The position numbers and the translations under genes are program-made. A stretch of 64,000 bases of DNA from Pseudomonadota bacterium (GTDB taxonomy: Bacteria; Pseudomonadota; Gammaproteobacteria; Eutrophobiales; Eutrophobiaceae): the NCBI GenBank assembly GCA_013112535.1, contig JABFGI010000002.1:62001-126000 (forward strand), in the 5' to 3' direction. Shown here in pieces: positions 37,074 to 57,498 of the stretch. The notes beneath the pieces were generated by a model. It was not told the DNA's origin. It worked only from the letters and a program-made list of their open reading frames with translations, and searched no databases. The first letter of the stretch is position 1. The number at the start of each line of letters is the position of its first letter.

Positions 37074-37136
37074 ATCGCATACTCCTGATGTGACTTACGT
37101 ATTGTTAGCAAAATTAAATGTTGCATCCGATCATCT

Positions 37137-37478: not shown

Positions 37479-37534
37479 CTGAATACTTAATCCTATTTTC
37501 ATAACCAGCCAATACTAATAGAGTTTAAAATATT

Positions 37535-39106: not shown

Positions 39107-39140
39107 CTGTGTTTAACCCCTAATAACTGTAGGTATCGAC

Positions 39141-40130
39141 ATGAAACATATAATCAAACAATTCGTTTTCATCATTACAATGCTTTTTGTATTTGGCATA
39201 CCGCAGCTTAATGCTGAAACGATCGTAAGCCTGAAAAAAGACGATAAAACCTATCAACATATCCTGCAACTCACCAAGGACTATTACAAAGCCTGGTCCT
39301 ATAAGAAGGAAGATGCACAATATGACCAGCCGGGGAAGTATTACAGCAAAGCCGCCGGCTTACAGTTCTGGGATCCACTTCCTCCTCTGGGTGGTCACCG
39401 AGGCTGGCAGGAATACCAACATGTAATAGAAGATGTATGGCTACCGAATGGGATTGATGCGGCTGCGATCCTGTTTTCACACGATGATTCATTTCACGCA
39501 TGGCGTCATGGCGATGTGATTTGGACATCAGCCAACTGCCTGGTCAGAGCGGAATATAAGGATGGTAGTAATGCCACCATACCCTGCCGTGGTAGTCAGG
39601 TATGGCAAAGACAAAACGATCATTGGTTGGTGGTACACGAACATTTTTCTACCCCTATTGTTCCTGATGGTAAATTATTTCAGGGTCAACGTGATCCGAA
39701 ACAATCACTTAAAGTTAATAAAGCCTTTACTGAACGGGCACGCGCAGTAGCAGCACAATGGCAGAAAGGACCTATTGCCAATATTGCTAAACGGCTCGAT
39801 GGGTTTTATTACAAACAAGACATACACCTGTATATGCCCTGGCCACCACATGATGGTTATACTGACTGGGATTCATTCGATGATGCCAGCACGGAATACC
39901 TCTCGTTGTTTGCTAACACGATTAAATTGACTGTCAATGATGATCTGGAGGCAACACAACACGGTGACATTGCCTGGACCACCGCCACGGTAACTCAAGA
40001 AATTGAACAGGATAACGGTAACACACTGCTGGTTAACGGCAGGCAAACCCTGATCTGGGTGATACAAGATAATCAATGGTTGATTGCCCATGAACATCTT
40101 TCCTTTCCACTCTTACCCAAGGAAAAATAA
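39141..40130 (+). CDS. Exported protein with two SnoaL-like (NTF2-fold) domains
   Basis: The 329-residue protein begins with a signal peptide (about 1-25, ending PQLNAE) and contains two related regions (about 35-180 and 190-325). Each ends with a similar HGD(V/I)xWT...VWQxxxxWLxxHEH pattern, which suggests tandem NTF2-like/SnoaL-type domains formed by internal duplication. Domains of this fold bind small hydrophobic molecules or catalyse isomerisation or hydration. It would act in the periplasm. The stop codon overlaps the SDR start (TAATG). The precise function is unknown. Confidence 0.78.
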   Translation: MKHIIKQFVFIITMLFVFGIPQLNAETIVSLKKDDKTYQHILQLTKDYYKAWSYKKEDAQYDQPGKYYSKAAGLQFWDPLPPLGGHRGWQEYQHVIEDVWLPNGIDAAAILFSHDDSFHAWRHGDVIWTSANCLVRAEYKDGSNATIPCRGSQVWQRQNDHWLVVHEHFSTPIVPDGKLFQGQRDPKQSLKVNKAFTERARAVAAQWQKGPIANIAKRLDGFYYKQDIHLYMPWPPHDGYTDWDSFDDASTEYLSLFANTIKLTVNDDLEATQHGDIAWTTATVTQEIEQDNGNTLLVNGRQTLIWVIQDNQWLIAHEHLSFPLLPKEK

Positions 40131-40933
40131 TGAATCATTTAGACGGAAAGATTAGTCTGGTCACGGGTGCCGCAAATGGCATCGGTGCAGCTTGTGCAGA
40201 ACAACTGGCGCAGGCTGGTGCTTTCGTCATCATGACAGATATAGATAAACAAGCCGGCTCAATCAAAGCAGAACAAATTCGTAATGCCGGTGGTGATGCA
40301 CAATTCCATCATCTGGATGTAAGTCGTGAAACTTCCTGGAACAGTGTCATCGAATTAATACAGCGACAGTATGACCAACTGGATGTATTGGTTAACAATG
40401 CTGGCATCGCCCTGATTAAACCAATTCATCACACTACACTGGAAGAATGGCAAAATCTTTGCCGGGTTAATATAGACGGCGTTTTTTTAGGAATGAAATT
40501 CTGTCAACCACTGATGCAACGTGACACAAACAAAAAAAGTGCTTCAATTATCAACCTGTCCTCGGCGGTGGGTATCGTCGGTGTCCCGGGTGCCTTGGGT
40601 TACAGTATGACCAAGGCCGCGATACGCCACATGACAAAATCGGCGGCACTTGAATATGCCGAATTTGGTTTTAATATTCGTGTCAACTCAGTGCATCCTG
40701 GTTTAACCGAAACACAAATGTCCGATGATATTCATCAAGTCTGGGCAGAGTCAGGGGCATTTGGTACTCACGATTTACAAGAAACCCGACAAGTCATGCT
40801 GGGACTACATCCACTGAAACGGTATGCAAACCCTGAAGATATTGCTAAAGGTATCGTCTTTCTCGCCTCAGATGACGCCAGTTATATGACCGGTGCAGAG
40901 CTGGTTATTGATGGTGGCTATACAGCACGATAA
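40130..40933 (+). CDS. SDR family oxidoreductase (first)
   Basis: A 267-residue classical short-chain dehydrogenase/reductase. The cofactor motif TGAANGIGAA, the aspartate after strand 2 (VIMTDID) favouring NAD(H), the NNAG motif and the catalytic Ser-Tyr-Lys (LSSAVGIVG, YSMTKAA) are all present. It closely resembles the second SDR at 56512-57330, sharing VLVNNAG, ALIKP/VLIKP and NSVHPGL, so the two likely oxidise related alcohols or reduce related ketones. It is the last gene of the plus-strand operon and is translationally coupled to the upstream exported protein. Confidence 0.93.
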   Translation: MNHLDGKISLVTGAANGIGAACAEQLAQAGAFVIMTDIDKQAGSIKAEQIRNAGGDAQFHHLDVSRETSWNSVIELIQRQYDQLDVLVNNAGIALIKPIHHTTLEEWQNLCRVNIDGVFLGMKFCQPLMQRDTNKKSASIINLSSAVGIVGVPGALGYSMTKAAIRHMTKSAALEYAEFGFNIRVNSVHPGLTETQMSDDIHQVWAESGAFGTHDLQETRQVMLGLHPLKRYANPEDIAKGIVFLASDDASYMTGAELVIDGGYTAR

Positions 40934-42493: not shown

Positions 42494-43945
42494 TTAAGGT
42501 GCTTTGTTTTCTTCAATCTTTGTCTGTGTTTTTTCCTCCGTTTTATCCTGTTGTACAGGATTATCGACTTGATCAGCTAACATATTCTTACCGATCACCT
42601 CTGCATTATTTTCATCTGCTGTCAGTGTTTCTTTAGTTTTCTCAGCCAGAGCAAACTTGCTCGCTTCCAGTGCACGCAAGCGTTCTAGTTCACTCAATGT
42701 ATACGCTTCCCATTTTCTCGCATCGGCAAAACTTTTCTTTGAATCCTTTGCTTGTCGAAAGGCCTGTAATGCACCTTCAAACTGTTTGACATTAAACAAG
42801 GCCATACCCATCAGCATATGGTTACTGTCCTTACGTTTCAGTCCTCCTTTTTCATCGGCTAGCTTGGCAGCCTCCGCGGCTTGCTTAAAATTACCCGCAT
42901 CAAAATGCACACCAGCCAAGCGAGCATATAAGATGCCCTTGTCTGATAAACTCGCTGCTTTTTCCAATGCAGGAATAGCTTTTTTATGTTCGTTCGCCTG
43001 CGCCCAGGCATTAGCCAGGGTCTCTACATTCTTAGGGCTTTGCTTGATTAATCCTGCTTGCATGCCAACTTCAATTATTTTTCCCGCCTTGTTGGGGATA
43101 TCCTGACCCAGATACATATAGGCCAGATTCAATACTTCTGATTCATTTTGCAATCCACCATGTAAATAGATGGCATCGTAGGTTGTTAGTCGTTTACGAT
43201 CATTACCTAACTCACCATTCAAGCCCGCAATCTGCCGCAAATAAATCATACTCGGATAGTGTTGCAATAATTTCTCATACGTCTTCAAAGTACTTTTGGT
43301 ATCTTTCTTTTCAAAATAGATAGCTGCTTTCATACGCAACCAGTTTTCTTTTACGTTCTTACCTGCCGCCGCTTCAAGTACGATAGCTTTATCCAGATTA
43401 TTCAAGGCCGGATCATAAATTTTGCTCTGGTAATAGGCTTGCGCCAACATGATATGGGCTGTAGCCGTCGGTTCGTCGATTTCTTTTAACCATTCTTCCA
43501 TGAAGCTAATGACGGATTTATAATCCTCTATCTGGAAGTAGAGTTGTGCCATTGTGTATTTCGCTGTCAACTTCAGTCCATCAGGTGCATCAGGTTCGGC
43601 GACTATCTTTTTATAAGCCCCTATCGCATCTTTATATTTTTCCTGGCTGGCATAAATAAAGGCATAAAAATTCCACATCTGACTCTTGGCATAACTGTTT
43701 AATTTGTCACTATTTTTAATCGTATCCAGAGTTTGTATTGCTTCATTGTACTGACCGGCTTCCGTTAGCTCCTGTGCTTTTGTCAATACTTCGAAAGTCC
43801 TGGCGTCGATTGCACCGGTGGCTTTGGTATCTTCCTTCTTGCGGGCCTGTACCTCTTCAGGGAAAGGCGACAAAATTATGATTAGCAGTAGACCCAACAG
43901 TATGTTGAATACTCTGTTACTGTAAATCTGACTAATCATCTTCAT
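42494..43945 (-). CDS. TPR-repeat exported protein of the TonB cluster
   Basis: The 483-residue protein has an N-terminal hydrophobic segment (about 12-33) consistent with a signal peptide or anchor, followed by about ten tetratricopeptide repeats (about 45-420) and a charged Glu/Lys-rich tail. TPR proteins of this size accompany TtpC/ExbB/ExbD/TonB clusters in many Gammaproteobacteria and probably organise the energising complex in the periplasm. It is the last gene of the operon, 30 bp after tonB. The exact partner is unknown. Confidence 0.85.
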   Translation of the reverse strand: MKMISQIYSNRVFNILLGLLLIIILSPFPEEVQARKKEDTKATGAIDARTFEVLTKAQELTEAGQYNEAIQTLDTIKNSDKLNSYAKSQMWNFYAFIYASQEKYKDAIGAYKKIVAEPDAPDGLKLTAKYTMAQLYFQIEDYKSVISFMEEWLKEIDEPTATAHIMLAQAYYQSKIYDPALNNLDKAIVLEAAAGKNVKENWLRMKAAIYFEKKDTKSTLKTYEKLLQHYPSMIYLRQIAGLNGELGNDRKRLTTYDAIYLHGGLQNESEVLNLAYMYLGQDIPNKAGKIIEVGMQAGLIKQSPKNVETLANAWAQANEHKKAIPALEKAASLSDKGILYARLAGVHFDAGNFKQAAEAAKLADEKGGLKRKDSNHMLMGMALFNVKQFEGALQAFRQAKDSKKSFADARKWEAYTLSELERLRALEASKFALAEKTKETLTADENNAEVIGKNMLADQVDNPVQQDKTEEKTQTKIEENKAP

Positions 43946-43975
43946 ATACTCTATTCCTGACCTGCTCTATGCTAA

Positions 43976-44593
43976 TTATTTCGCTATCTTAAAGATAATC
44001 TTGGTGCTCACACCCTGTACCTCAATAGGCTCACCATCTACCACTCGCGGTTTGTATTTGTAACGTAATGCTGACTTAATGGCTGCCTTGTCAAATGTTC
44101 CCGGCGGTTGTGCTTCTACCACAACCGGATCTTTGACGGTACCTTGTTTGGTCACGGTATATTCCAAAATAACATAGCCTTCTTTCCCTTTACTCAGTGC
44201 ACGTCGTGGATATTGAGGAGCCACTTTAACAATAGGTAGATATTCACCATCGGTGGCTTGCAGACCCGCGCCAATATTTAAATCAAGTTTTGCCTGTATC
44301 TTGCCTGGTGCAGCAACCTGGCCAACTTCTGCATTACCATCAATCTGGTCAAAATCCTGCTCTGGTATTTCTGGCGGAGGTGTTTCGTCTATTTTTGGTT
44401 TATCCGGCTTTTCAATAATGCGTTGCATCTCAATTTCGATTTCAGGCATGTAGATGTCTGGTAACTTAATCCGCTTAGCTTTATCCAGGCCTTTATCTGC
44501 AAATTCAATCAGGCTTACCATTAATATCAATAGTAGCAATGTGACTAAAGCTGCTTGCGGTATAACAAACAAAATTCTTAGCAGACTTCTCAT
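43976..44593 (-). CDS. tonB: Energy transducer TonB
   Basis: TonB spans the periplasm and transmits proton-motive force to outer-membrane receptors. The 205-residue protein has one N-terminal membrane helix (about 8-30), a short Pro/Lys/Glu-rich linker (about 60-85) and a TonB C-terminal domain (about 118-205) with PIVKVAPQYPRRALSKGKEG and YKPRVVDGEPIEVQGV. The short linker resembles TonB2-type proteins. It lies 42 bp downstream of exbD within a TonB2-like cluster. Confidence 0.93.
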   Translation of the reverse strand: MRSLLRILFVIPQAALVTLLLLILMVSLIEFADKGLDKAKRIKLPDIYMPEIEIEMQRIIEKPDKPKIDETPPPEIPEQDFDQIDGNAEVGQVAAPGKIQAKLDLNIGAGLQATDGEYLPIVKVAPQYPRRALSKGKEGYVILEYTVTKQGTVKDPVVVEAQPPGTFDKAAIKSALRYKYKPRVVDGEPIEVQGVSTKIIFKIAK

Positions 44594-44635
44594 AATATTT
44601 AGTTGATCTTTGTTGCTCTATGTTGTTTCATTGAG

Positions 44636-45055
44636 TTAATTAGATTGCTCTGTCGCCAATGAAACTTTCTCATGAGGAACAACTTCTCGAGCGGCATCCA
44701 ATACAGCTGTAAAGGTTTTAATTGAAGCAAGTTCATCGGCCTGTATTACAACCCCACCTTCCGGGTTCTCAGCATGCAGTCGTTCAATGTTGGCGCGCAC
44801 TGACCGTATATCAATTCGACGTTTATCAATCCAGACACTGTTATCTGCATTAATGGCAACCAATACCGTCGTGTTGTTTTTTTGATCGGAGGTACTGGCA
44901 TTCGGTCGATTAACTTCAACGCCTGCTTCTTTAATAAACGTTGCCGTTACAATAAAAAAGATCAACATGATAAATACCACGTCAAGCATTGGAGTTAAGT
45001 CAACAGCACCTTCGTCTTCGCCACTTGTATCTGAACTAAAACTTCGTCTTCTCAT
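44636..45055 (-). CDS. exbD: ExbD biopolymer transport protein
   Basis: ExbD forms the proton-conducting motor with ExbB. The 139-residue protein has a short cytoplasmic start, one membrane helix with the conserved aspartate in VDLTPMLDVVFIMLIFFI, and a periplasmic domain. The N-terminal RRRSFSSDTSGEDEGAVDL is longer and more acidic than in ExbD1-type proteins, as seen in TonB2-type systems. It starts 4 bp after the exbB stop. Confidence 0.95.
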   Translation of the reverse strand: MRRRSFSSDTSGEDEGAVDLTPMLDVVFIMLIFFIVTATFIKEAGVEVNRPNASTSDQKNNTTVLVAINADNSVWIDKRRIDIRSVRANIERLHAENPEGGVVIQADELASIKTFTAVLDAAREVVPHEKVSLATEQSN

Positions 45056-45059
45056 ATCT

Positions 45060-45590
45060 TTAATGATCCATCGTTAAGTGTTCTTCAATTAATTTACGTT
45101 CACGCGTCGCTTTCTGGACAATATAGATGTTGGCAAAAACACCAGACAAGGCTGCGACCATGCCGGCCATCGTCGGGATGGTCGCGCGCGAGACTCCACC
45201 TGCCATCGATTTAGCATCTCCACCACCCGTAATTGATAACACAGTAAAAACATCGATCATGCCCGTAACGGTACCGAGTAAACCAAACAAGGGACAGATC
45301 GCAATCAAAGTTTTTATCAACGACAAGTTTTGATTGATCTTGATTGATGTCTCAGAAATCAGTTTGTCTCGAATGGCATGCGCATACCAAGAGGTGCGTT
45401 CCTTTCGTGCTTCCCAATTATCTAGGACCAGCCTTGCATCTTTACGATAACCAATAAAATAATACCAACCGCGTTCCAGTATCAATATCCACATGATGAA
45501 AGTTAATGCCGCAATCAAGTACAACACCGGTCCGCCCGCATTAAAAAAGTTGTTGATGGCCTCTATGGCGTCAAGTAAATACAAAGGCAT
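45060..45590 (-). CDS. exbB: ExbB proton channel subunit (short form)
   Basis: This 176-residue protein is a MotA/TolQ/ExbB family member with three membrane segments. The conserved region LFGLLGTVTGMIDVFTVLS and GGVSRATIPTMAGMVAAL form the proton-path helices. Together with ExbD and TonB it forms the inner-membrane energiser. It follows the long TtpC-like homologue, giving two ExbB-type proteins in one cluster, a pattern known from Vibrio TonB2 systems. Confidence 0.95.
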   Translation of the reverse strand: MPLYLLDAIEAINNFFNAGGPVLYLIAALTFIMWILILERGWYYFIGYRKDARLVLDNWEARKERTSWYAHAIRDKLISETSIKINQNLSLIKTLIAICPLFGLLGTVTGMIDVFTVLSITGGGDAKSMAGGVSRATIPTMAGMVAALSGVFANIYIVQKATRERKLIEEHLTMDH

Positions 45591-45620
45591 GTTATTTTTC
45601 CTGTGTTGACCTTTGGCGTT

Positions 45621-46994
45621 CTATTGCCCTGACCGTTCAGCGACAATACCCGCACTTTGCTCTTCCAGGATGTGCAACAGTTTCCTGGCCTTGCCGTTTA
45701 ACATTGTATGCAACAATAAGGTGGGAATCGCAACACAAAGTCCCAACACTGTTGTTACTAATGCGCTGGATATACCGCCCGCCATCGCCTTCGGATCACC
45801 GGCACCGTAGATGGTTATCGCCTGGAAGACGATAATCATACCGGTCACCGTACCTAATAAACCCAGTAATGGGGCAACCATTGCAATAATTTTGAGCAAT
45901 GACAGTCCCGACTGAATCTTCGGACTTTCTTTTAATATTGCTTCACCCATCTTCAACTCAAGACTTTCCGTATCGGACGTTTTGTTGTCATCAGCGACTT
46001 TAAGTATGCGTCCCAAGGGGTTATTTGTTTTGATTTCTTTGCGTTTTAATTGAGCCCTGATCTTGGTCGATACCAGAGTCAGCATGAGAAATCGCCATAA
46101 CGCAACCAATACAGCAAAGGCACCCACAGCGGTAATGATGTAACCGACTTGGCGCCCCTGATGCCAACGTTCTTCCAGGGTCGGTGTATTGATGATCGCT
46201 TTTAGGAAACCCCCACCGGCCGCGCCGGTGGGATCAATGCCAACAGGGGTTACATCACTGGGGGAGTTTTGCAACGCTTTGGCATTGAGAAAAAGTCCCA
46301 CCGGTTGCCTTGGAAGAACAGAGAGACTACGCGTGTCGGCATCATAGGCCAGATACTCACCCTGTGAGACCAGATTGAAAAGTCCGATACGAATAATTTC
46401 ACGATTTTTTTCAGTACCAACCACCGTTGTGTATTTCACCACGCGACCAGACTCCGTCATCTCTTGATGTAGTTCATACCAAACCCTTTCAATCTCTTCC
46501 AAGGTGGGTAAATCCGTATCGCTATTCATTTTCTTGATCAGTCCACTCAAGAACGCTTCTCTCTCCGGAAACTGACTGGTAGTAATTGCGTTACGAAATC
46601 GACTGCGCATGTCACCTGCTGCTCCCGTAAGATGTCCAAATAATTCTTTTAATGAGCCCAGACGTTCATTACGTTGTTGCCGTTTCTCTTCAACTAATAA
46701 TTCATTGGTATTAAAACGCTGTTCCAGAGCCACACTTTTTTCTTCGAGTGCCTTTACATCGTTCATGGCTTTTTGGATCCGCGCAACTTGCTGAGCCTTC
46801 TCGTCAATAAATGCCTGTTCTCTTTTTTTATTATCTGCCGCATCTTTCGCACGACCTTCCTTAACCTGTTGTAATAATTTATTCATCGATAAAACATCAT
46901 CAGCTGCCAAAGTGATAACTGGCATACTTGCAATTAATAAAAATAATAAAGGCTTAATTAATGGGCAGTTTGTTTTGTTTAATTGTTTTTTCAT
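45621..46994 (-). CDS. Long ExbB homologue (TtpC-like MotA/TolQ/ExbB protein)
   Basis: The 457-residue protein has a signal peptide (about 1-31), a periplasmic coiled-coil region (about 40-140), a globular part and a C-terminal ExbB-type domain (about 285-450) with APLLGLLGTVTGMIIVFQAI and MAGGISSALVTTVLGLCVA. This architecture matches TtpC, the fourth component of TonB2 systems in Vibrio, which links the energiser to the receptor. It overlaps the DUF3450 gene by 4 bp and precedes exbB by 30 bp. Confidence 0.9.
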   Translation of the reverse strand: MKKQLNKTNCPLIKPLLFLLIASMPVITLAADDVLSMNKLLQQVKEGRAKDAADNKKREQAFIDEKAQQVARIQKAMNDVKALEEKSVALEQRFNTNELLVEEKRQQRNERLGSLKELFGHLTGAAGDMRSRFRNAITTSQFPEREAFLSGLIKKMNSDTDLPTLEEIERVWYELHQEMTESGRVVKYTTVVGTEKNREIIRIGLFNLVSQGEYLAYDADTRSLSVLPRQPVGLFLNAKALQNSPSDVTPVGIDPTGAAGGGFLKAIINTPTLEERWHQGRQVGYIITAVGAFAVLVALWRFLMLTLVSTKIRAQLKRKEIKTNNPLGRILKVADDNKTSDTESLELKMGEAILKESPKIQSGLSLLKIIAMVAPLLGLLGTVTGMIIVFQAITIYGAGDPKAMAGGISSALVTTVLGLCVAIPTLLLHTMLNGKARKLLHILEEQSAGIVAERSGQ

Positions 46995-47776
46995 TGTGCC
47001 ATCTCCGGTGCAGCAATTGGCAGGGTCAAAATATTTATTGATGCCTGTTTTTTTGCCATCTTTATGCCCTGTCGTATAGCATTACGGTAGGTGACGTTAT
47101 CGAGTAATTCCCAGGTTTTATTGTCGTTATTCCAACGAGCAGAAGTCTTGGTGTCTTTGGTTTGACAAACCATAGCGATACGCCCGACTCGTAATATATC
47201 GACTTCCTGTTCAGTACCATTTAAATTCACAATATCCTGATAACTATCAATTTTACGTCCATATTCATTTTCAATTTGATAGGCTTCGATCACTTGACGA
47301 AATTTCTCAGCAACATCAACATCTGCAGCAACCAGATTATCTTGTATAAACGCTAAACGTTCTTGTCGTTCTTCTGTATGGAAAGGAATATCTAATTCAA
47401 TAAAATCTTCCAGACTTGCTGCCATTTTCGTTACCAACGGTGACATTTGTCGTTCAATCAAAGCAACTTGAGCTATTGATTCATCAAAACGGTTTATCAA
47501 GTCTTCCTGACTGGCTACCTGAGTTGAAAGTTGTTCGTTATAAGCTTCTAATCCTTCTATTTGCTTTATTAAACTTCTGTATTGAATTAATCGTTCTTGC
47601 GCGCCTTCAACAATCTTGTCGATTTTCTTTTGTGACTCCGCCGCTTCAACTAATTTTTTTTCACCCACTTGTTGTATATCATCAAGCTTGGCAGCAAATG
47701 TATGCATGGAGAGAGACAAGAGCAGAATACTGTTTACCAATATCCTGACAAACTGATCATTTTTTTTGCTCATCAT
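46991..47776 (-). CDS. DUF3450 family exported coiled-coil protein
   Basis: This 261-residue protein starts with a signal peptide (about 1-29) and continues with a long coiled coil (about 35-110, rich in Lys, Glu and Gln) followed by a smaller globular domain. The family DUF3450 is regularly found next to TtpC/ExbB/ExbD/TonB genes, and this position agrees. It is probably a periplasmic part of the TonB2-type complex. No enzymatic motif is visible. It is separated from the upstream receptor gene by 89 bp without an evident terminator. Confidence 0.87.
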   Translation of the reverse strand: MMSKKNDQFVRILVNSILLLSLSMHTFAAKLDDIQQVGEKKLVEAAESQKKIDKIVEGAQERLIQYRSLIKQIEGLEAYNEQLSTQVASQEDLINRFDESIAQVALIERQMSPLVTKMAASLEDFIELDIPFHTEERQERLAFIQDNLVAADVDVAEKFRQVIEAYQIENEYGRKIDSYQDIVNLNGTEQEVDILRVGRIAMVCQTKDTKTSARWNNDNKTWELLDNVTYRNAIRQGIKMAKKQASINILTLPIAAPEMAQ

Positions 47777-47865
47777 TTATTTCCTTTTGAAATACTAATA
47801 GTTAATACAGCATTGAAAATATGTTTTGTCACGCAAGTCAGACCAGATCAATTTTCTTCTTGATG

Positions 47866-49794
47866 TCATATAAAAACATTCTTAAAGCAAATACTGAATC
47901 TAGCCGTGCGGCCTGGCCCAGGGAAACCAACAGCAGTCCGAAAATTTTCATCTAATAGATTATCCAGAGCCAATTCCAAATGCACAGCTTTACCAAATTG
48001 CTTACGCACATTCCAATCCACACGATGAAAATCACTGAGGGTCTGAACCATCGATGCTCCCGTATGCATGGAAGAGGCAAATTGTTCACCCATCCATTGA
48101 TAGTCAAGCGTCGTACTCCAATCGCGGTTAATCTGCCATAACGCCATGGCTCCTGCCTTCCACTCAGGCCGCCCAAGCAATACGGAAGTCCCGTTTTTTA
48201 CGTTTAAATCAATATGCGTCGTTTGCGCTTGCAGCCATACTTCTTGCAAAGGTTTCCAGCTCAATTGCAATTCCGTACCATGACTTTCTACCCGTGAGCG
48301 ATTTACGTTAATAAAGAGCGCCGGATCAAAATCAATAAGATCACGATAATCATTGGAAAAGTAACTGACAGCCAGATCAACATCTTTTCTCGGCGACCAT
48401 TTCAAACCAACATCCCAGGCTCTGGCTGTCTCTGGTTTAAGATTCGGGTTACCTACCAGGCTATGCCCCAAAGCAAAAAAACTGGGCAATTTATATGCCT
48501 CACCCCAGTTTGCAGAAACCGTCAATAAGGGATTTATCTGGTAACTGACACCCAGATTAATACTGGTCTCACTGTCAAAATTATCCGGGTCGTCATAACG
48601 CAAACTTGCCTGAAATAATAAAGCTTGTATCGGCCGGGAATGAAAGTCGACAAACAATCCGTGAGTACTACGCTCCAGTTCAAAATTAGTCGGTACCTTA
48701 AAAAAACCTAAATCAAGAAAACCACGACTATCACCCTCTTCATTTCGATAATCAACACCCAGACTTAATTGGTGTGCATCACTAATTTGCAGTGTGTTTA
48801 ACCATTGCAATTGATAACGTTGAAAGTGCGTGTCAGCGGCATTCGGTGGCACAACCGTAAAAGGCGTAACACCGGGTGAGTTAAAAGATTCTTCATGTTC
48901 GAAATACTTGGCGGATACAACACTTTGCCAATTGTCAGAAATATTAGCCTGCCAATTTAAATAAAAGGTTTGATCCTCATAATCACTATCATCTAACAAA
49001 TTACTCAGTGCTAATTCGGGACCACCACTTTGTTCTGGATAGGAGTTTCGTTGACCATCCAGATAACGATAACTGGCACTAATTTGATGCTTGTCCGAAG
49101 CTTGCCAATCCAGTCTTAGACTTGCGTTATCTGTTTCTCGAGTACTACCCTCAATCTGTTCGCCCTCATCACGTTTACTCAGATTAAGTGCGTAACGCAA
49201 TACCCCCGATTCGCCAGAAGCAGCCAGACTAAAATTACGGATATCGTCTTCACCAACTTCGGCTCGCAGTTGTTGCTGATGTCCTTCTTGCCCCCGATGA
49301 GTGATAATATTGATTACACCTGACAAAGCATCAGAACCATACACGGCCGATTGTGTACCACGCACAATTTCGATGCGTTCAATGCTGGCCGGATCCAGAT
49401 TGGAGAAATCAAAACCGCCACCACGGGAATTTGTCGGGTCGTTTAGCGGAACGCCATCGAGTAACACCAGTGTGAAATTTGCCTCGCCGCCGCGAATAGA
49501 GATAGCCGTTAATCCTCCGGGACCACCTTGCTCTTCAACCAATAAACCAGGTACGTTCTTTAATAAATCCGCAATCGTTCGCTTATTAAGCGCCTGTATA
49601 GTTTGACTATCCAGTACCGATACGGATGCAGTAAGATCTGCATTTTGCTGTGGGCTATAACTGCCGGTGACGAGCAAGTCCTCCATCTGACTCCACTGAG
49701 CAAAGGAACTGACGGGCATCAAAACGGTTGCCAGCATAATGATGGTTTTACTTTTAATACAAATTTTACTGTTCGTGATTTTCATCCTGCTCAT
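47866..49794 (-). CDS. TonB-dependent receptor, BtuB-like (first)
   Basis: The 642-residue outer-membrane protein has an N-terminal signal peptide (about 1-32), a TonB box-like MEDLLVTGSYSP, a plug domain with LVLLDGVPLNDP and IERIEIVRGTQSAVYGSDA, and a 22-strand barrel ending in an aromatic-poor FKNVFI. It resembles BtuB/FepA-type receptors and would import a large or scarce ligand. Being in the same operon as the C-N hydrolase and the TonB energiser suggests that its ligand is the hydrolase substrate or a metal-chelate. It lies 19 bp downstream of the haem/VCBS gene. Confidence 0.93.
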   Translation of the reverse strand: MSRMKITNSKICIKSKTIIMLATVLMPVSSFAQWSQMEDLLVTGSYSPQQNADLTASVSVLDSQTIQALNKRTIADLLKNVPGLLVEEQGGPGGLTAISIRGGEANFTLVLLDGVPLNDPTNSRGGGFDFSNLDPASIERIEIVRGTQSAVYGSDALSGVINIITHRGQEGHQQQLRAEVGEDDIRNFSLAASGESGVLRYALNLSKRDEGEQIEGSTRETDNASLRLDWQASDKHQISASYRYLDGQRNSYPEQSGGPELALSNLLDDSDYEDQTFYLNWQANISDNWQSVVSAKYFEHEESFNSPGVTPFTVVPPNAADTHFQRYQLQWLNTLQISDAHQLSLGVDYRNEEGDSRGFLDLGFFKVPTNFELERSTHGLFVDFHSRPIQALLFQASLRYDDPDNFDSETSINLGVSYQINPLLTVSANWGEAYKLPSFFALGHSLVGNPNLKPETARAWDVGLKWSPRKDVDLAVSYFSNDYRDLIDFDPALFINVNRSRVESHGTELQLSWKPLQEVWLQAQTTHIDLNVKNGTSVLLGRPEWKAGAMALWQINRDWSTTLDYQWMGEQFASSMHTGASMVQTLSDFHRVDWNVRKQFGKAVHLELALDNLLDENFRTAVGFPGPGRTARFSICFKNVFI

Positions 49795-49813
49795 GATGCT
49801 GTGACGAACCTGA

Positions 49814-51595
49814 TCAATTATTGTTTAAAAGGAAAACAATGCTCGGTGCCTTGCCATTGCGCCCCTTCATAATTTTCCTGGTAAGCCAGTCATCAGGAAC
49901 CAGTGTAGGGAAATTACCTAAACCCAAAACTATATCCAGCTTCTGATCACCGTTCACATCGGCAGCTTCTATATCACACCATACGCTGAAAAAATCGCGT
50001 GGCAGTGTCGACGTGGTAAATTTCCAATTACCTTGATTTTCCATGTAAACAAATGTTTCCGGTTCTTCTATATTCCAGAGAGGAAACAGTGCGATCATGG
50101 CCATATCGATATCGCCGTCCTGATCAAAATCCTCTGAGACTGTTCGAATTGCGCCATGCATTTGATAATAATATTCCTCGCTGAAGTTTAAATTACCATT
50201 GTTCTTGAACAATCTCAGGCCATGCCGGGGACGCGGTGAGGGAATAAGGTTACCTATATAATTACCACCCATATTGTCACCACTGACCAAGGCAATATCA
50301 AGATGACCATCGCCATCATAATCTTTTACTGTAATATTATTGCCACCAAAACTTGGAGGATTTTTTATAACAATGTGACGGGAAAATTTTTCATTACCTT
50401 CGTTAAGGTAAACCACTACGTGCTGATTACCCTGAGCAATTAGAGTGACAATATCGGGCTTACCATCTTCATTAATATCAGCAATTTCAGAATCAATATA
50501 ACCAGCCAACTCATCTAACACCGTTTCCCGCAAAGCACCTTGCAATGGTCCTGATGGAATTTTAGCTGGTGCATTCTTCCATATTTTTTCATATTCCGGT
50601 GTTTGCCAATAAATAGATAATCGGGCACCTGAATCGTACCAAATACCGTCCCCAAAACCGGTGGTAACCATGTCTTCAAGGCCATCATTGTTGAGATCAT
50701 AGCGCGAATGTGTAACAAAACGATGCCTGCCATTCACCAACATCCGAGCCTTAGGTTCGCTACCTTTCTCAAACTCCCAATCGATGACACGCGCAAGACC
50801 ATTACCATGATCGATGGGGAATTCACCATGAGTCAGTAATCTCACACCCGTCGGTGTCAAACTCATTTCAATCGGATCGCTGTCAAGGTTTGTATGTCCA
50901 ATACGCTCGCCACTATCTAAATCAAGTGCGACAAGGTCATCAGTCAGGTGCTCATCACCCACATACCAGTCATCAATTACCGAGCGGCCAACATAAAGGC
51001 GTCGGCGTTTTGTATCGACGCGAGTTGCCATTACCAGGCTATTTGGCTCAAGATCCAGTCTAGGAACAATCGGGGTAAACCCTTTGAGAACAGGTTCTTT
51101 ACGATTTCGTAACTCCATCCTTGGATCAGAGCTAGGCAAAGAATTCTCAACAAAGTAATCTTTGATTCGACGGAATTCCTCTTCGCTCATCATTGGCTCA
51201 GTCACCATGTGACTTTTAAAAATCCAGTAGAACTGCATGAGATCTTTTCTTTGGTCATAAGCAACATAACGATGGTTGTAATCATCTGCCGGTATCATTT
51301 CTGGAGGAAATGGACCAATTTTTAGTTCCGGGAATTTAACGTCCTGCATACCCACGTAGTAACTCATATAGTGCACGGCTATGGGCCAAAACTCTCTGGG
51401 TAAATTGGTTGGTTCGGGTGCCAGATGACAGCGAGTACAATGAGTATCCACCAGTTCCTTGCCACTCAGTCCTTTTTCTAGCTCCTCACCTCCAGCATAA
51501 ACGCTACCAGCAGAAATAGTTATCATACCCACTACCAACTTGTGTATCAGGGAAATCATTTTTTGCCTATTAATAAATATTTCAATACCAATCAT
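49814..51595 (-). CDS. Exported one-haem, FG-GAP/VCBS beta-propeller protein
   Basis: This 593-residue protein combines an N-terminal haem-binding motif CTRCH (Cys53, Cys56, His57) with a C-terminal seven-bladed propeller made of VCBS/FG-GAP repeats. Calcium-type loops such as DLNNDGLEDM, DINEDGKPDIV, DYDGDGHLDIAL, DFDQDGDIDMAM and DVNGDQKLDIV are regularly spaced (about residues 290-570). The signal peptide fits best if translation starts at Met13 (MISLIHKLVVGMITISAG). It would be a periplasmic or surface c-type protein, perhaps passing electrons or binding ligand for the downstream receptor. No known family has exactly this layout to my knowledge. Confidence 0.85.
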   Translation of the reverse strand: MIGIEIFINRQKMISLIHKLVVGMITISAGSVYAGGEELEKGLSGKELVDTHCTRCHLAPEPTNLPREFWPIAVHYMSYYVGMQDVKFPELKIGPFPPEMIPADDYNHRYVAYDQRKDLMQFYWIFKSHMVTEPMMSEEEFRRIKDYFVENSLPSSDPRMELRNRKEPVLKGFTPIVPRLDLEPNSLVMATRVDTKRRRLYVGRSVIDDWYVGDEHLTDDLVALDLDSGERIGHTNLDSDPIEMSLTPTGVRLLTHGEFPIDHGNGLARVIDWEFEKGSEPKARMLVNGRHRFVTHSRYDLNNDGLEDMVTTGFGDGIWYDSGARLSIYWQTPEYEKIWKNAPAKIPSGPLQGALRETVLDELAGYIDSEIADINEDGKPDIVTLIAQGNQHVVVYLNEGNEKFSRHIVIKNPPSFGGNNITVKDYDGDGHLDIALVSGDNMGGNYIGNLIPSPRPRHGLRLFKNNGNLNFSEEYYYQMHGAIRTVSEDFDQDGDIDMAMIALFPLWNIEEPETFVYMENQGNWKFTTSTLPRDFFSVWCDIEAADVNGDQKLDIVLGLGNFPTLVPDDWLTRKIMKGRNGKAPSIVFLLNNN

Positions 51596-51596
51596 A

Positions 51597-52799
51597 TCAA
51601 TTCCAACTGCTCCACATTTTTTTTAGTTCTTGCCACTGCTCTGCGTTCGTTCCCCGATCATCCTCAGGCATCAGTTTAGCTCCTTCAAATTGAGTATGGG
51701 GACGGGTCCAGGTACCTCGTTCATAGAGCGACTCGATATTCTGTCGATAGATTTCATCAACATCGTTGTGTTGCAGAGGGTCCTGTTCCAGCCACAGGTT
51801 TTTGGGATGTATAGGCTGTGAGTACATCTCTTGGAACAACTCGGTACGAAGATCTTTCAACCAATTGCTATTCAGGTTCATCGCACGATACTGGCGTAAG
51901 GCTTCAATATCAATGATGGCTGATACGATTGTATTATTACCCGGCACAGAATGACTCAACACTTCGCCCCGGTATCCAATCATATGGCTATTGCCCCCTG
52001 AAATATCGACCGGATGCCTGGACGATGCGGATAGATAAACCGGACCAATATTAGGACACAACATATAGAGGCTGTTAAATTCAGCATGTCCCCGATTTTG
52101 CACCATCCAGCTACCACCCGGACTACCACCAGAATTGGTCATGGGGACAGCCTCTGATGGGCGATAAACAACCTCTGCACCATTGAATGCCAGTGCGCGA
52201 ACCGCTTCCGGGTATTCACCATCAGAACAGCAAATGGTGCCAATATTACCGATATCATCGGTCTTCAACACCGGGTAAAACGCATCTATGCCGCTGCCGA
52301 AATGTTCCACCCAGCGGTCATAAATGTCATGCGGTGTACAGGAACGTTCCCTACACCAGATATGGTTTTTGGCAGCTTTGTGTACCACCTCGCCATCGGG
52401 GTCAATAACAAAGAGTGTATTGAAAAAACGATCATCCATAACCTCAGGCCAGCGTGCCTTACATTGCACGATGATGTAAGTGTTATACATTTTTGCCAGA
52501 CGACCTAAAAATTCTGTTTCCTCTCCCGGCACATCTATAAATAATTCATTAGCGGCCAGTTTATGCGGCAGGTCGAAAATTTCATCGGTAAATCCAGTCA
52601 AGGCGCCTTCAGCTAAAGAGATAATCTTGACCGGCATATTGATATTAGTCATTGAGACCGCGGCATGAATAACATCCTCAATTGTCTCAAGGTTATGCTG
52701 GATATGTTTTCTCTCGGCGATACCGTAAGCCACAGTCGATAAACCAAGCGCCATGTATGGTGCGATAGGTGTAGGCGTTTTCTTTGCTGAATGGATCAT
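51597..52799 (-). CDS. Carbon-nitrogen hydrolase, nitrilase superfamily (second paralogue)
   Basis: The 400-residue enzyme is a paralogue of the one at 35985-37073. The catalytic triad is Glu64 (SLAEGAL), Lys144 (HKAAKNHIW) and Cys191 (TICCSDGEYPE). It shares the C-terminal IDIEALRQYRA and NWLKDLRTE blocks but has a longer tail and an insertion of Gly and Ser residues near 215-225 (NSGGSPGGSW), which would reshape the active-site entrance and so the substrate range. The start overlaps the MFS stop (ATGA), and the haem/VCBS gene begins 2 bp later, so it is tightly embedded in the uptake operon. Confidence 0.9.
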   Translation of the reverse strand: MIHSAKKTPTPIAPYMALGLSTVAYGIAERKHIQHNLETIEDVIHAAVSMTNINMPVKIISLAEGALTGFTDEIFDLPHKLAANELFIDVPGEETEFLGRLAKMYNTYIIVQCKARWPEVMDDRFFNTLFVIDPDGEVVHKAAKNHIWCRERSCTPHDIYDRWVEHFGSGIDAFYPVLKTDDIGNIGTICCSDGEYPEAVRALAFNGAEVVYRPSEAVPMTNSGGSPGGSWMVQNRGHAEFNSLYMLCPNIGPVYLSASSRHPVDISGGNSHMIGYRGEVLSHSVPGNNTIVSAIIDIEALRQYRAMNLNSNWLKDLRTELFQEMYSQPIHPKNLWLEQDPLQHNDVDEIYRQNIESLYERGTWTRPHTQFEGAKLMPEDDRGTNAEQWQELKKMWSSWN

Positions 52800-53977
52800 A
52801 CGCTTATCCTCAATTCTGTTGCTGCAAGCGGGCTACTCAGGTGACGGGTACGAGAGATGATAAATAAGAACATCAAAAGGCTGGCTGTACAAGAAAGTGC
52901 CGCCACCTTATTGATTAGACTATAGTCACCGTTACTTATTAACGACGCGGCAACAGCGGGACCTATCGCTGCACCAAGCCCCTGGAAACCGGTAACCAGT
53001 ACCAGGAAATGACCTTTGATATCTATCTTGGCAATAACACCCAATTGATAGGAGTTAGCCAAAACAAACAGCGCTTGAAACAATCCTGCTCCAAGACAAA
53101 ATACAAGTGAACTGAACTGTCCTACCAGTAGCATCAACGTTGTTAGTAGACCTAACAAAGCTGCCAGTAATGGTATTGCACGTCCAAAACGATCCGCCAT
53201 CACAGCGGCCATTCCAGCACCGACTATGGCGGCAAATTGAGACAAGCCTAAGGCCCACCCAATTGTATCTGTACTAAGACCCGCTGCCTGACCAATACGC
53301 TCAATATAGGTCCAGAAACCAAAGATATTTGAGAAAAAAAGGAAACTGGCGATAAGACCAACCCAGATTAACCAGGTATAACGACGATTATCACTGGCAT
53401 CAACATCATCCAACACCCTATCAGCTCCAGCCGAGGGATAACGCCATAAGCTTAGCATCATCAACACAGAAACCGCCGCTAACATGTAATAAAGACCGCT
53501 CACAGTCCAATGCTGCAAAATAGTGGGAGCACTGGTAAATGCTAAAAACATCATCGCACCTTGCACCACCTGAGCGATGCCAAATGCCTGATCCGGTTGC
53601 CGATTATCTCCCAGCGCAGCTACCGTGACGGCAAAAATAGTACCGCCCGTCATGCCGGCCAAAAACCGGCTAATTAACAACGGTAAAAACACATCGAGGT
53701 TAGCACTTAGAATATTGAGTAATGCCGTAGCAACAAAGCTCACTAACAACACTCTGGTCCAGGATATTTTTCGAATCCATAACGCAGCAAGCAACGACGC
53801 AACGACCAGTCCCATGCCTTCCATAGCGGCAATATAACCCGCCTGCTGTTCCGTAAAACCGAAATCATCGATCACGCCACCGACTAACATCGGCATCAAA
53901 ATAATCGCTGCCGGCCCCAAAGGGTAGACAGTAGAAATCAGAATGGTCGTCGTCAGCTTATCGTCAAAGGTACTCAT
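52796..53977 (-). CDS. MFS transporter (first gene of the uptake operon)
   Basis: This 393-residue protein has 12 predicted helices of the major facilitator superfamily, with the N-half motif around ALWIRKISWTRVLLV and VMADRFGRAIPLLAALLG between helices 8 and 9. It would carry the substrate or its product across the inner membrane. It is the first gene of a ten-gene operon ending at 42494 and is translationally coupled to the C-N hydrolase. A Fur-box-like sequence lies 11 bp before its start codon. Confidence 0.9.
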   Translation of the reverse strand: MSTFDDKLTTTILISTVYPLGPAAIILMPMLVGGVIDDFGFTEQQAGYIAAMEGMGLVVASLLAALWIRKISWTRVLLVSFVATALLNILSANLDVFLPLLISRFLAGMTGGTIFAVTVAALGDNRQPDQAFGIAQVVQGAMMFLAFTSAPTILQHWTVSGLYYMLAAVSVLMMLSLWRYPSAGADRVLDDVDASDNRRYTWLIWVGLIASFLFFSNIFGFWTYIERIGQAAGLSTDTIGWALGLSQFAAIVGAGMAAVMADRFGRAIPLLAALLGLLTTLMLLVGQFSSLVFCLGAGLFQALFVLANSYQLGVIAKIDIKGHFLVLVTGFQGLGAAIGPAVAASLISNGDYSLINKVAALSCTASLLMFLFIISRTRHLSSPLAATELRISV

Positions 53978-53987
53978 ATTTTTTTAT

Positions 53988-54006
53988 TATTATGATAATC
54001 ATTAGA
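53988..54006. promoter_or_regulatory. Fur-box-like 19-mer upstream of the uptake operon
   Basis: The 19-mer TATTATGATAATCATTAGA matches the classical 19-bp Fur consensus at 15 positions, including the whole central TGATAATCATTA. It lies 11-29 bp before the MFS start. AT-rich DNA produces such matches by chance, so this is suggestive only. If real, it would place the receptor, TonB energiser and hydrolase under iron control. Confidence 0.4.
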
Positions 54007-54055
54007 AGAACCAGACAAAGCTAATAATTGTAACTCTTCAGTGCAAGGTATATCC

Positions 54056-54067
54056 ATCGTCGACGAT
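54056..54067. promoter_or_regulatory. 12-bp perfect palindrome upstream of the uptake operon
   Basis: ATCGTCGACGAT reads identically on both strands and lies 79 bp upstream of the MFS start. It is a simple candidate operator. Its length makes a chance origin less likely but not excluded. Confidence 0.35.
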
Positions 54068-54105
54068 CATAGCCTATTGGATTGAAACTAAACACGGTTC
54101 TTAAT

Positions 54106-54138
54106 TTTATGCGCATACCGTTAAGGTATGCGCATAAA
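54106..54138. repeat. 14-bp inverted repeat with 5-nt loop between second TonB receptor and uptake operon
   Basis: The arms TTTATGCGCATACC and GGTATGCGCATAAA are perfectly complementary and enclose GTTAA. Each arm also contains the self-complementary TATGCGCATA, so the element is doubly symmetrical. It starts 14 bp after the stop of the second TonB receptor gene. There is no U-tract on the minus strand after the hairpin, so it is not a textbook intrinsic terminator; it may instead be an operator for the ten-gene operon, an RNA-stabilising hairpin, or a terminator of another kind. Confidence 0.6.
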
Positions 54139-54151
54139 CAGATGTACATAT

Positions 54152-56362
54152 TTAGAAATTATACGATAGCGATGCACCGAACCAGCGAGGAGGAGCATAG
54201 ACATCTGTAACAGTGCCTGTCGCAATAGCCAGATCCAGACTATAGATACGATATTCTTCATCGGTAAGGTTTTTTACAAACAAAGATGTTTTCCATTTTT
54301 CATCTTTAGTCTTGAAAGTAATATTAGCATTCCAGACTGAATATGGATCTTCTGCCGTCGCATCAGCATTGGTACCCAACAGAAACTGTTCACTGTTAAA
54401 ATTACCATCTAGCTGTGCTGACATCATGCCTGCTCCACTGAACACAGGCCACTCATAACGTCCCAACCAGTTAAGGCTAATCGTGGGAGCATTAGGAAGT
54501 TTTACATCGCTTACAGTTCCGCCAAAAAGATCCGGTATTTCATCAACCTCTGAATCCATAAAGGCAGCGCCTAAGACAACATCCCAACCCCGAGCCGGCG
54601 CTAAAAATAATTCTATTTCACCACCGTAGGCCATGGCATCGCTATTACTCACCTGCGGTACAATATTCGCATTAAAAGAAAATGCCTGATAATCAGAATA
54701 ATCATAATAGAATGTTGTTGCATTGATACGTCCGAGACCATTCGGCAGAGTCCATTTGGCACCCAACTCATAAGATAGTAAGACCTCTTCACCATGTTTC
54801 AGTAAAACTGTCGTGTCTGAGGTTACCGGTGGTGTCCAGTTTCCGCCTTTAATGCCTCGATTAAACGATGCGAATAGCAATAAATCATCGTTCGGTGTCC
54901 AGTTCATTTGAAATCGAGCCGCCACATCGCCATAGTCAATCTCATCCAAACCGGGGTTGGTGGCCAATAAAGTAGACATGTTCGCTCCATTAAAGTTGGC
55001 TATGGTCGCACCCCCTGGAGTGACCCCAATAGCATTCCAGTCAATCTCTTTATCGTCCTGGGAAAATCGCAAGCCGGCTATCGCCGTCCATTCGTCATTA
55101 AGATCATATTCACCTTGTCCAAAGATCGACCAGTTACGCGAATCCAACTGAGTATTAACACTGACACTATCAACAGGACCACCGGCAAATGTAAATGGGA
55201 GAAAAGGCGCATCAGTCGCCGTCACAGTTGAGTCGATATCGAGGTTGAGATAATAAGCACCCAGCGTCCATCTACTTCTGTCTCTTTCCACGTTCAAACG
55301 CAACTCCTGACTAAATTGTTCCGTCTTTGCTAAAAACCGTGCGGTAAAATCAAAAGGCAGTCCTGCACCGCCATCAGCATCTTCCAGATAATCCTTGTCT
55401 ATATCTTTCCAGTTGGTGATAGAAATCAGTTCCATATCATTATTGAGATTCCAGGTAAATGTCCCGGTAACATCCAGGATGTCACGATCCAGATAGCCCT
55501 GTGCACCTGAAGTATGGGAATGAGGATCTGCCGGCTTTACCAGGCCTATACCAAAGCCCGTGCTAGCATCAGCATGTGCCCCGCCAATGGTATATGCACC
55601 AGAGGGAACATCATCATCTTTGGAATAGGCGACCTTGAAATCCCCTACCAGGTCATCAGAAAAATCCATCTGCAAAGTACCACGCAAAGCATAGCCATCC
55701 AGACCATGAGCATCGCGTACTGATGGATCACCTACTGATTCAACATAACCGTCCGCGGTCTCCCAACGCGCGGCAACGCGCGCTCGTACATTATCAGTCA
55801 GTGCACCGCCAGCTGCCGACTCAACAGTATACTTACTATACTCTGAAATCGAACCTTCAACGTATCCATTAAATTCATCGTCATCAGCTTTACGCGTAAG
55901 GTAATGAACCAAACCGCCGGTCGCGTTACGCCCGAACAAGGTGCCTTGCGGGCCACGTAAAACTTCGACACGTTCCATATCGAATAGTTGAGCACTTATG
56001 GCATTCATACTTGCTGTATAGGCTCCATCAACATACACCGCTATCGGAGCTTCTAAAGTATCAGTAAAATTATTTTGTGAAATTCCACGCAAGTTTAAGG
56101 TTGTTAGACCTGGATTAAAGGTATTTAACTGCAAGCCTGGAATTTGTTGAGTAATATCTACAGCATTATCTATTCCCAACGCATCGAGTTGCTCACCGGA
56201 AAAAGCTGTTACTGAAATACCTACATCCTGCAAATTCTGTTCACGTTTTTGCGCAGTTACAACAACCTCTTCAATCACGGCTGCATAACTTAGCGAGGTA
56301 ACCAGTATCAGGGTCGATACCGACAATCCTCTTCTTAGTAGCATTAAACTATCAACCTTCAT
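54152..56362 (-). CDS. TonB-dependent receptor (second)
   Basis: The 736-residue outer-membrane receptor has a signal peptide (about 1-27), the TonB box IEEVVVTAQKREQNLQDVG, a plug domain with ERVEVLRGPQGTLFGRNATGG and a barrel ending in SLSYNF with the terminal phenylalanine typical of outer-membrane proteins. This VTAQKRxQNLQDV group is widespread in bacteria that degrade organic compounds. The N-terminal plug shows no extra signalling domain. It has its own leader of 149 bp containing the conserved 18-mer motif (one mismatch). Confidence 0.94.
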   Translation of the reverse strand: MKVDSLMLLRRGLSVSTLILVTSLSYAAVIEEVVVTAQKREQNLQDVGISVTAFSGEQLDALGIDNAVDITQQIPGLQLNTFNPGLTTLNLRGISQNNFTDTLEAPIAVYVDGAYTASMNAISAQLFDMERVEVLRGPQGTLFGRNATGGLVHYLTRKADDDEFNGYVEGSISEYSKYTVESAAGGALTDNVRARVAARWETADGYVESVGDPSVRDAHGLDGYALRGTLQMDFSDDLVGDFKVAYSKDDDVPSGAYTIGGAHADASTGFGIGLVKPADPHSHTSGAQGYLDRDILDVTGTFTWNLNNDMELISITNWKDIDKDYLEDADGGAGLPFDFTARFLAKTEQFSQELRLNVERDRSRWTLGAYYLNLDIDSTVTATDAPFLPFTFAGGPVDSVSVNTQLDSRNWSIFGQGEYDLNDEWTAIAGLRFSQDDKEIDWNAIGVTPGGATIANFNGANMSTLLATNPGLDEIDYGDVAARFQMNWTPNDDLLLFASFNRGIKGGNWTPPVTSDTTVLLKHGEEVLLSYELGAKWTLPNGLGRINATTFYYDYSDYQAFSFNANIVPQVSNSDAMAYGGEIELFLAPARGWDVVLGAAFMDSEVDEIPDLFGGTVSDVKLPNAPTISLNWLGRYEWPVFSGAGMMSAQLDGNFNSEQFLLGTNADATAEDPYSVWNANITFKTKDEKWKTSLFVKNLTDEEYRIYSLDLAIATGTVTDVYAPPRWFGASLSYNF

Positions 56363-56473
56363 AAAACTATCCCCCTCGAATATTTTTATTATCTTGTGAA
56401 GTTTATGGATAGCAATAGGCTATCCTGATCAAAACCTGTCTCAGTTATTATTGCTAAAAAGCTCTATGTCATA

Positions 56474-56491
56474 TATCAACCAAAAGGATGA
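56474..56491 (-). promoter_or_regulatory. Conserved 18-mer motif upstream of the second TonB receptor
   Basis: TATCAACCAAAAGGATGA differs at one position from the 18-mer that occurs twice more at 57454-57471 and 60794-60811. It ends 112 bp before the receptor start codon. Read on the minus strand the motif is followed by an AT-rich block at about the spacing of a -10 element, with the TTGATA part at the place of a -35 hexamer. It is a candidate activator site. Confidence 0.6.
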
Positions 56492-56511
56492 GACGATAAA
56501 TTAAAAGCGCC

Positions 56512-57330
56512 CTATTGGGCTGTTTCTCCACCATCAACCATCAATTCTGAGCCTGTGACGAAGGAACTCAGGTCAGAAGCCAGAAATAGCACCGCATTTG
56601 CCAATTCCTGTGGCGTACCTAAGCGTCCCATAGGGTTCAAATTCTCGAATGCCTGTCGCATTTCTTCAGGCGTGGAGGTACCCATAGCACCCAATGCGGC
56701 GAGTTTTTTGGACTCGTATTCTACCATCGCTGTATCAACAAGCCCGGGATGCACTGAATTAACCCGAACGTTGTATTTTAACTCGGCAAACTCCAGCGCA
56801 ATTGACTTACTAAACATTCGGATAGCCCCCTTGGTCATACTATAGAGAGAGCCGTACGGATAGCCTTTGATTCCCATGGCCGATGAAAAATTAATAATGG
56901 ATGCCCCCGCTGAGTTGGACTGCCCCCTCAACTTCAGAAGAGGAAGGGCATACTTTACCCCGAGAAAGACGCCATCAATATTTATCCGGGATATCCAGTG
57001 CAACTCCTCCATGGATATCTCCTCAACAGGTTTTATCAGGACTACGCCTGCATTGTTGACCAACACATCCAAGCCCTTATAGTTATCCCGAATCTCGGCT
57101 ATAACAATTTTCCATTGTTGTTCATTGCTGATATCCAGAACTTTGAATTCCGCCTTACCTCCCTTGCGTTTAATCTCCTCAACTACTTCTATTGCTGGAG
57201 TAGACTGTCCTTCAAGATCCGTAACTATTACTGTGGCTTTGGCAGCGGCCAGAGTTTTCGCCACAGAGGCACCAATGCCTGTGGCAGCACCCGTTACCAG
57301 TGCTATTTTGTTATTCAGGTCGATATTCAT
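56512..57330 (-). CDS. SDR family oxidoreductase (second)
   Basis: A 272-residue short-chain dehydrogenase/reductase with TGAATGIGAS, the aspartate in VIVTDLEG that favours NAD(H), NNAG and the catalytic Ser and YSMTK (FSSAMGIKG, YSMTKGA). It is a clear paralogue of the SDR at 40130-40933. Its promoter region contains one of the two 47-bp repeats. It is followed by the second TonB receptor on the same strand after 149 bp. Confidence 0.93.
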   Translation of the reverse strand: MNIDLNNKIALVTGAATGIGASVAKTLAAAKATVIVTDLEGQSTPAIEVVEEIKRKGGKAEFKVLDISNEQQWKIVIAEIRDNYKGLDVLVNNAGVVLIKPVEEISMEELHWISRINIDGVFLGVKYALPLLKLRGQSNSAGASIINFSSAMGIKGYPYGSLYSMTKGAIRMFSKSIALEFAELKYNVRVNSVHPGLVDTAMVEYESKKLAALGAMGTSTPEEMRQAFENLNPMGRLGTPQELANAVLFLASDLSSFVTGSELMVDGGETAQ

Positions 57331-57431
57331 TACAAAAACCCACTAATAATTTTAAGGATAAAATGGTCTGGTAAATACTTAAGCGAGCATTACTGTAAAA
57401 TAGATACAGCCGTGATCACCCAGTAAGAAGA

Positions 57432-57478
57432 TTAAAACAATGTTTAAGCGCGAGATATCAACCAAAAGAATGATAAAA
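57432..57478 (-). repeat. 47-bp repeat copy 1, upstream of the second SDR gene
   Basis: This copy matches the repeat at 60772-60818 at 42 of 47 positions. It contains the block TTAAAACAATGTTTAA, a variable 8-mer, and the invariant TATCAACCAAAAGAATGA at 57454-57471. The first block includes the small inverted repeat AAACA-A-TGTTT. It lies 102 bp upstream of the SDR start and 21 bp downstream of the LuxR gene. Read on the minus strand, TTGATA and an AT-rich hexamer 18 bp further could be -35 and -10 boxes, with the conserved flank as activator site. Confidence 0.75.
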
Positions 57479-57498
57479 AAAGAAATTTGTACTCTTGT

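Follow-up and report, generated by a model that had tools for sequence, protein, structure and literature searches.

The 64,000-nt stretch of contig JABFGI010000002.1 analysed here (the window, whose positions serve as coordinates throughout) contains ten tightly packed genes at 42494-53977, in which a nitrilase-type hydrolase and a TonB-dependent receptor are followed by the components of a TonB energiser. Does this run of genes encode one system dedicated to a single solute, or does it consist of two sets of genes that lie next to each other? Comparison of gene neighbourhoods points to the second answer: the ten genes are probably two separate units, and the dedicated ten-gene system proposed in an earlier note on this sequence is probably a local arrangement. 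The coherent unit spans approximately 47866-58212, not 42494-53977, because genes further upstream are co-conserved with it in relatives that lack the TonB module. These genes, which the earlier note overlooked, continue the conserved neighbourhood on the same strand and encode a second TonB-dependent receptor (TBDT2), a short-chain dehydrogenase (SDR) and a LuxR-type regulator. Below, L-numbers denote compared loci and G-numbers compared genomes. The upstream unit comprises:

57499-58212, minus strand: LuxR/GerE-type regulator, which opens the conserved upstream block (Pfam PF00196)
56512-57330, minus strand: SDR (Pfam PF13561)
54152-56362, minus strand: TBDT2 (Plug match at G000:C2:117913-118233)
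52796-53977, minus strand: major facilitator superfamily (MFS) carrier (Pfam MFS_1)
51597-52799, minus strand: C-N hydrolase, amidase/formamidase-like (Pfam PF00795)
49814-51595, minus strand: exported FG-GAP propeller protein with an N-terminal mono-haem motif (FG-GAP_3, 91 bits)
47866-49794, minus strand: BtuB-like TonB-dependent receptor (plug and barrel, Pfam)

The junction and the six genes downstream of it are:

47777-47865, minus strand: spacer of 89 bp at the junction of the two units, the longest gap among the ten genes
46991-47776, minus strand: DUF3450 (TtpB-like) protein, first gene of the TonB module (PF11932, 253 bits)
45621-46994, minus strand: TtpC-like MotA/ExbB protein with a long N-terminal part (Pfam MotA_ExbB)
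45060-45590, minus strand: ExbB (Pfam MotA_ExbB)
44636-45055, minus strand: ExbD (Pfam ExbD)
43976-44593, minus strand: TonB (PF03544, TonB_C)
42494-43945, minus strand: tetratricopeptide repeat (TPR) protein at the TtpD position, with which the module ends (TPR matches)

The open reading frame coordinates place all ten genes on the minus strand where the earlier note had put them, Pfam backs every protein identity that it assigned, and the spacing that it gave (overlaps of 4 bp or gaps of at most 89 bp) agrees with the measured junctions, which range from -4 to +89 bp. Starting from the MFS end, these are -4 (MFS/hydrolase), +1 (hydrolase/propeller), +19 (propeller/receptor), +89 (receptor/DUF3450), -4 (DUF3450/TtpC-like), +30 (TtpC-like/ExbB), +4 (ExbB/ExbD), +42 (ExbD/TonB) and +30 bp (TonB/TPR).

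Judged by sequence and order, the upstream genes are a rare conserved cluster of LuxR, SDR, TBDT2, MFS, hydrolase, FG-GAP/haem propeller and BtuB-like receptor. A search of genome contigs with the propeller sequence alone as the query gave no match. With a two-row propeller profile, a scan of 84,980 species genomes yielded seven loci, and no further orthologue was detected at E <= 1e-60 in samples of the class (369 genomes) and the phylum (398 genomes). Parts of the upstream block surround the hydrolase and propeller genes in six distantly placed gammaproteobacterial metagenome-assembled genomes. L111 has LuxR, SDR, TBDT2, MFS, hydrolase, propeller and receptor. L106 has LuxR, SDR, MFS, hydrolase and propeller, with a receptor 61% identical to that of the window in convergent orientation. 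L107 has MFS, hydrolase and propeller; L108 and L110 have propeller, SDR, MFS, hydrolase and TBDT2; and L112 has the hydrolase (truncated where the contig stops), propeller and receptor. The seventh locus, L109, is a G018 contig of just 4.8 kb, which carries the receptor and the propeller and ends beside the receptor. The hydrolase gene lies at most 4 kb from the propeller gene in the window, L106, L107, L108, L110, L111 and L112, in two arrangements.

L107 reproduces two junctions of the window exactly, its MFS and hydrolase genes overlapping by 4 bp and its hydrolase and propeller genes lying 1 bp apart, and L106 retains the overlap. The LuxR proteins, found at the same relative position, are 72% (L106) and 60% (L111) identical to that of the window, and the SDRs 75% and 67%. 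The MFS carriers are 75-78% identical in L106 and L107, 67% in L111, 48-55% in L108 and L110, and 38% in L043. TBDT2 homologues (31-35%) adjoin the hydrolase in L108, L110, L044 and L046 and the MFS gene in L111. A literature search on FG-GAP proteins with TonB, or on C-N hydrolases with TonB receptors, found no description of such a cluster.

The downstream six genes are a module of a familiar kind: their order (DUF3450, TtpC-like, ExbB, ExbD, TonB and a sixth gene) identifies them as a standard TonB2/TonB3-type module. In Vibrio vulnificus the TonB2 operon, of six genes, starts with the gene for the DUF3450 protein TtpB2 and ends with ttpD2, and in the Vibrio tonB3 operon an outer-membrane receptor gene stands at the head of TtpB-TtpC-ExbB-ExbD-TonB-TtpD (PMC6957404); TonB2/TtpC clusters were thus already known, as the earlier note had said. 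The window shares with both the six-gene order starting with DUF3450, and with TonB3 the receptor-first arrangement, whereas, unlike in Vibrio, the receptor gene of the window is preceded by amidase, MFS and haem/FG-GAP genes. The TPR protein is likened to TtpD2 by its position and its TPRs only.

In L014, L085, L099, L100 and other loci the module stands by itself or follows other genes. In L085, from G001 of the same genus, its orthologues are 76% (DUF3450), 83% (TtpC), 89% (ExbB), 91% (ExbD), 80% (TonB) and 77% (TPR) identical and lie behind transposase genes and remnants, without the amidase. The orthologous module of another genus (L100; 72-85%, DUF3450 72%) is preceded by GcvT-like and FMN-oxidoreductase genes. 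That of another family (L099; five genes at 58-76%, DUF3450 58%, TPR 51%) is preceded by another TonB receptor and by an exported protein without annotation. The window genome itself has a second six-gene copy on another contig (L014), without a receptor, which the earlier note also overlooked.

Could the ten genes nevertheless be one dedicated system, with a TonB module that energises this receptor only? They lie on one strand with junctions of at most 89 bp, no promoter or terminator was matched in the spacer at 47777-47865 (the promoter scan overall performed at chance level), and the Vibrio tonB3 operon offers a receptor-first precedent (PMC6957404). GC content and GC content at third codon positions show no step at the spacer of the kind that an assembly chimaera could leave. 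However, the linkage is found in the window genome only. Module genes are absent near the propeller at all seven other propeller loci, and DUF3450 genes occur elsewhere in four of the six genomes, once on the same contig at a distance of more than 40 kb. None of the 39 other DUF3450 loci examined has a propeller or hydrolase orthologue. The sole one with even a weak C-N hydrolase match (45 bits) and a weak match to a TonB-dependent receptor (60 bits) is L139, whose own receptor is directly upstream of DUF3450. The genes at the upstream side of the module differ in L085, L099 and L100, and the module of the same genus, 76-91% identical, lacks the upstream genes. Furthermore, the window genome encodes 11 receptor plugs, against which stand three TonB_C proteins above cut-off and a fourth, marginal match. 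A module reserved for one receptor is thus unlikely; as far as these counts indicate, the energiser is probably common to several receptors. A single dedicated system is therefore given little credence. The earlier note had named conservation of the TonB part without the hydrolase in relatives as the finding that would speak against its proposal, and this is what the neighbourhoods revealed: at the level of gene order, a private energiser is refuted as a conserved feature. What survives of the proposal is an import-plus-hydrolysis unit, co-conserved in other gammaproteobacteria.

Other TonB modules have neighbourhoods of their own. In L100:710-4195 the module lies 29 bp behind the GcvT-like gene and an FMN oxidoreductase of the trimethylamine-dehydrogenase type. 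At L096:9868-14410 a DUF3450 module follows, with tight spacing, an imelysin-like protein, a TonB receptor and a fatty-acid hydroxylase, again in a receptor-first arrangement. The surroundings of the module in L014 and L131-L137 are similar within the genus and outside it. Two genes form a divergent unit, which in L014 encodes a histidine kinase and a response regulator, and two more encode exported proteins, one YVTN-type and one ABC-binding-like; the genes agree in size and order.

The hydrolase belongs to the nitrilase superfamily (PF00795, 103.4 bits against a gathering threshold of 23.2) and contains the Glu-Lys-Cys triad:

52608-52610, minus strand: predicted catalytic Glu64 (alignment invariance)
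52368-52370, minus strand: predicted catalytic Lys144 (alignment invariance)
52227-52229, minus strand: predicted catalytic Cys191 (Cys in 24 of 26 rows)

Glu64 and Lys144 are invariant in every alignment row that covers them, and position 191 is Ala in two divergent paralogues. The latter, L051:11613-12671 and L055:9512-10594, are possibly non-enzymatic, because Ala replaces the catalytic Cys. The nearest Protein Data Bank entries found with a profile are formamidase (2dyu, E 2e-15) and aliphatic amidase (E 2e-14). The window hydrolase shares the triad and the C-x-D-G context with these enzymes (2dyu, 2plq), but is distant from them, falls in a clade of its own and has several paralogues per genome. 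It misses all NCBIfam equivalog cut-offs, including those for formamidase and aliphatic amidase (46.6 of 406 and 40.7 of 427 bits). Its AlphaFold model was poor (mean predicted local distance difference test, pLDDT, 47.7) and was not used. Across the FG-GAP-linked loci the hydrolase is 67-88% identical; in L106 and L107 it reaches 87-88%, compared to 55% for the propeller and 75-78% for the MFS carrier. The hydrolase tree requires three label changes for propeller linkage, which is compatible with single or multiple origins.

A paralogous C-N hydrolase, 46% identical and likewise overlooked before, is encoded at 35985-37073. It adjoins genes for a flavin adenine dinucleotide (FAD) amine-oxidoreductase-like protein, a SnoaL-like protein and an SDR (35985-40933), and this region together with 49814-63999 has the look of a catabolic island. 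By eye, 29908-33064 appears to carry the coenzyme F420 biosynthesis genes CofC, CofD and CofE and an NpdG-like reductase, a set not expected of a gammaproteobacterium. In G018 and G031 the hydrolase orthologue likewise has an NpdG homologue (58-60%) beside it. Two molybdenum-hydroxylase gene sets lie at 17323-28174, one large subunit being fused to a CoxG-like domain (by eye).

The haem assignment of the propeller has as its sole basis one motif that follows a signal-like N terminus:

51425-51439, minus strand: CTRCH c-type haem-binding motif, propeller residues 53-57 (invariant in eight orthologues)

Met77 and Met83, downstream of the motif, are also invariant in all eight orthologues, and their sequence position suggests that they could be axial haem ligands. 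The seven relatives are 45-55% identical to the window protein. The AlphaFold model is a beta-propeller (mean pLDDT 71.7, predicted template modelling score 0.76). The nearest fold match is CRTAC1, and aldos-2-ulose dehydratase and integrin are among the best. The window protein has a common fold with CRTAC1 and aldos-2-ulose dehydratase, which are FG-GAP/integrin-type propellers, but carries an N-terminal haem motif and is only 11-13% identical to them. A lipobox-like cysteine was recognized by eye in four of the eight orthologues (L107, L108, L110 and L112).

The receptor adjoins the propeller in the window, L106, L109, L111 and L112; its homologues in L112 and L109 are 29-32% identical, and that in L111 is 30% identical to the G018 receptor. 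In Bacteroides, according to PMC10404256 and PMC6143338, a BtuB-type receptor stands beside a propeller lipoprotein, BtuG, and the window has this layout, an exported propeller encoded beside a BtuB-like receptor. The two pairs are likened by layout only: the window protein has FG-GAP repeats and an N-terminal c-haem motif, belongs to an amidase locus and has no detected riboswitch. The comparison serves to suggest how the pair might work and does not assign it to the BtuB-BtuG group. Taken further, it would make the pair a scavenger of corrinoids or metal chelates, with the hydrolase as a metabolic passenger. This layout (PMC10404256, PMC6143338) and the nearest solved relative of the receptor, BtuB (3rgn, E 5e-37, full length), favour such a role. 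The receptor, however, scores 258.5 bits against the cut-off of 599.7 for the BtuB vitamin B12 receptor family TIGR01779, and an Rfam scan of the window found nothing, including no cobalamin riboswitch. No Fur box was matched in the window at three or fewer mismatches; a Fur-like site at 53988, upstream of the MFS gene, has four, and is absent from L106-L112 except for one five-mismatch match in L109. Every propeller locus long enough to reveal a hydrolase has one. We consider the scavenger very unlikely.

We favour, with somewhat better than even confidence, a reading in which the upstream unit is an uptake-and-hydrolysis locus for an amide-type solute and the TonB unit a general energiser that lies downstream of it in this lineage. 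The exported haem propeller and the TonB receptor would bind an amide-type organic solute at the outer membrane and admit it, and the MFS carrier would pass it through the inner membrane to the Cys-Glu-Lys amidase in the cytoplasm, which would cleave it and release nitrogen; the SDR may work on a product. The TonB2/TonB3-type energiser, probably co-transcribed with the upstream unit, would drive this receptor and others too. A scarce organic nitrogen ligand, as suggested earlier, is a possible substrate. It is conceivable, though unlikely, that the c-haem FG-GAP propeller is a redox-active capture partner of the receptor, which oxidises or reduces the ligand before import and amide hydrolysis; if so, it would represent a redox-gated variant of BtuG/SusD-type capture.

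Several observations weigh against uptake and hydrolysis as a single function. The window propeller itself lacks a lipobox, and in L107, L108 and L110 the propeller neighbourhood revealed no BtuB-like receptor. Eight genomes of the same family have a hydrolase orthologue (72-79%) without an adjacent propeller, so the enzyme does not depend on this receptor. These propeller-free orthologues lie near an FAD oxidoreductase or an NpdG-like protein, and that of G018 near a ureohydrolase, an aminotransferase and an M20 peptidase. Such neighbours fit amide or guanidino nitrogen catabolism, short of proof. The cluster could also serve export, the hydrolase inactivating an amide-type inhibitor that the MFS carrier expels, and the weak MFS matches do include drug-efflux models. 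Against this, the one or two TonB receptors and the SDR in the cluster suggest uptake and the G018 neighbours suggest catabolism, and we consider detoxification very unlikely.

A widespread, known energiser cassette can now be set apart from a rare conserved locus for probable uptake and hydrolysis. The pairing of a haem propeller with a TonB receptor is unusual and raises the question of why a haem-bearing protein should stand beside such a receptor. The defined gene set, with its exactly conserved junctions, is a starting point for finding a new substrate.

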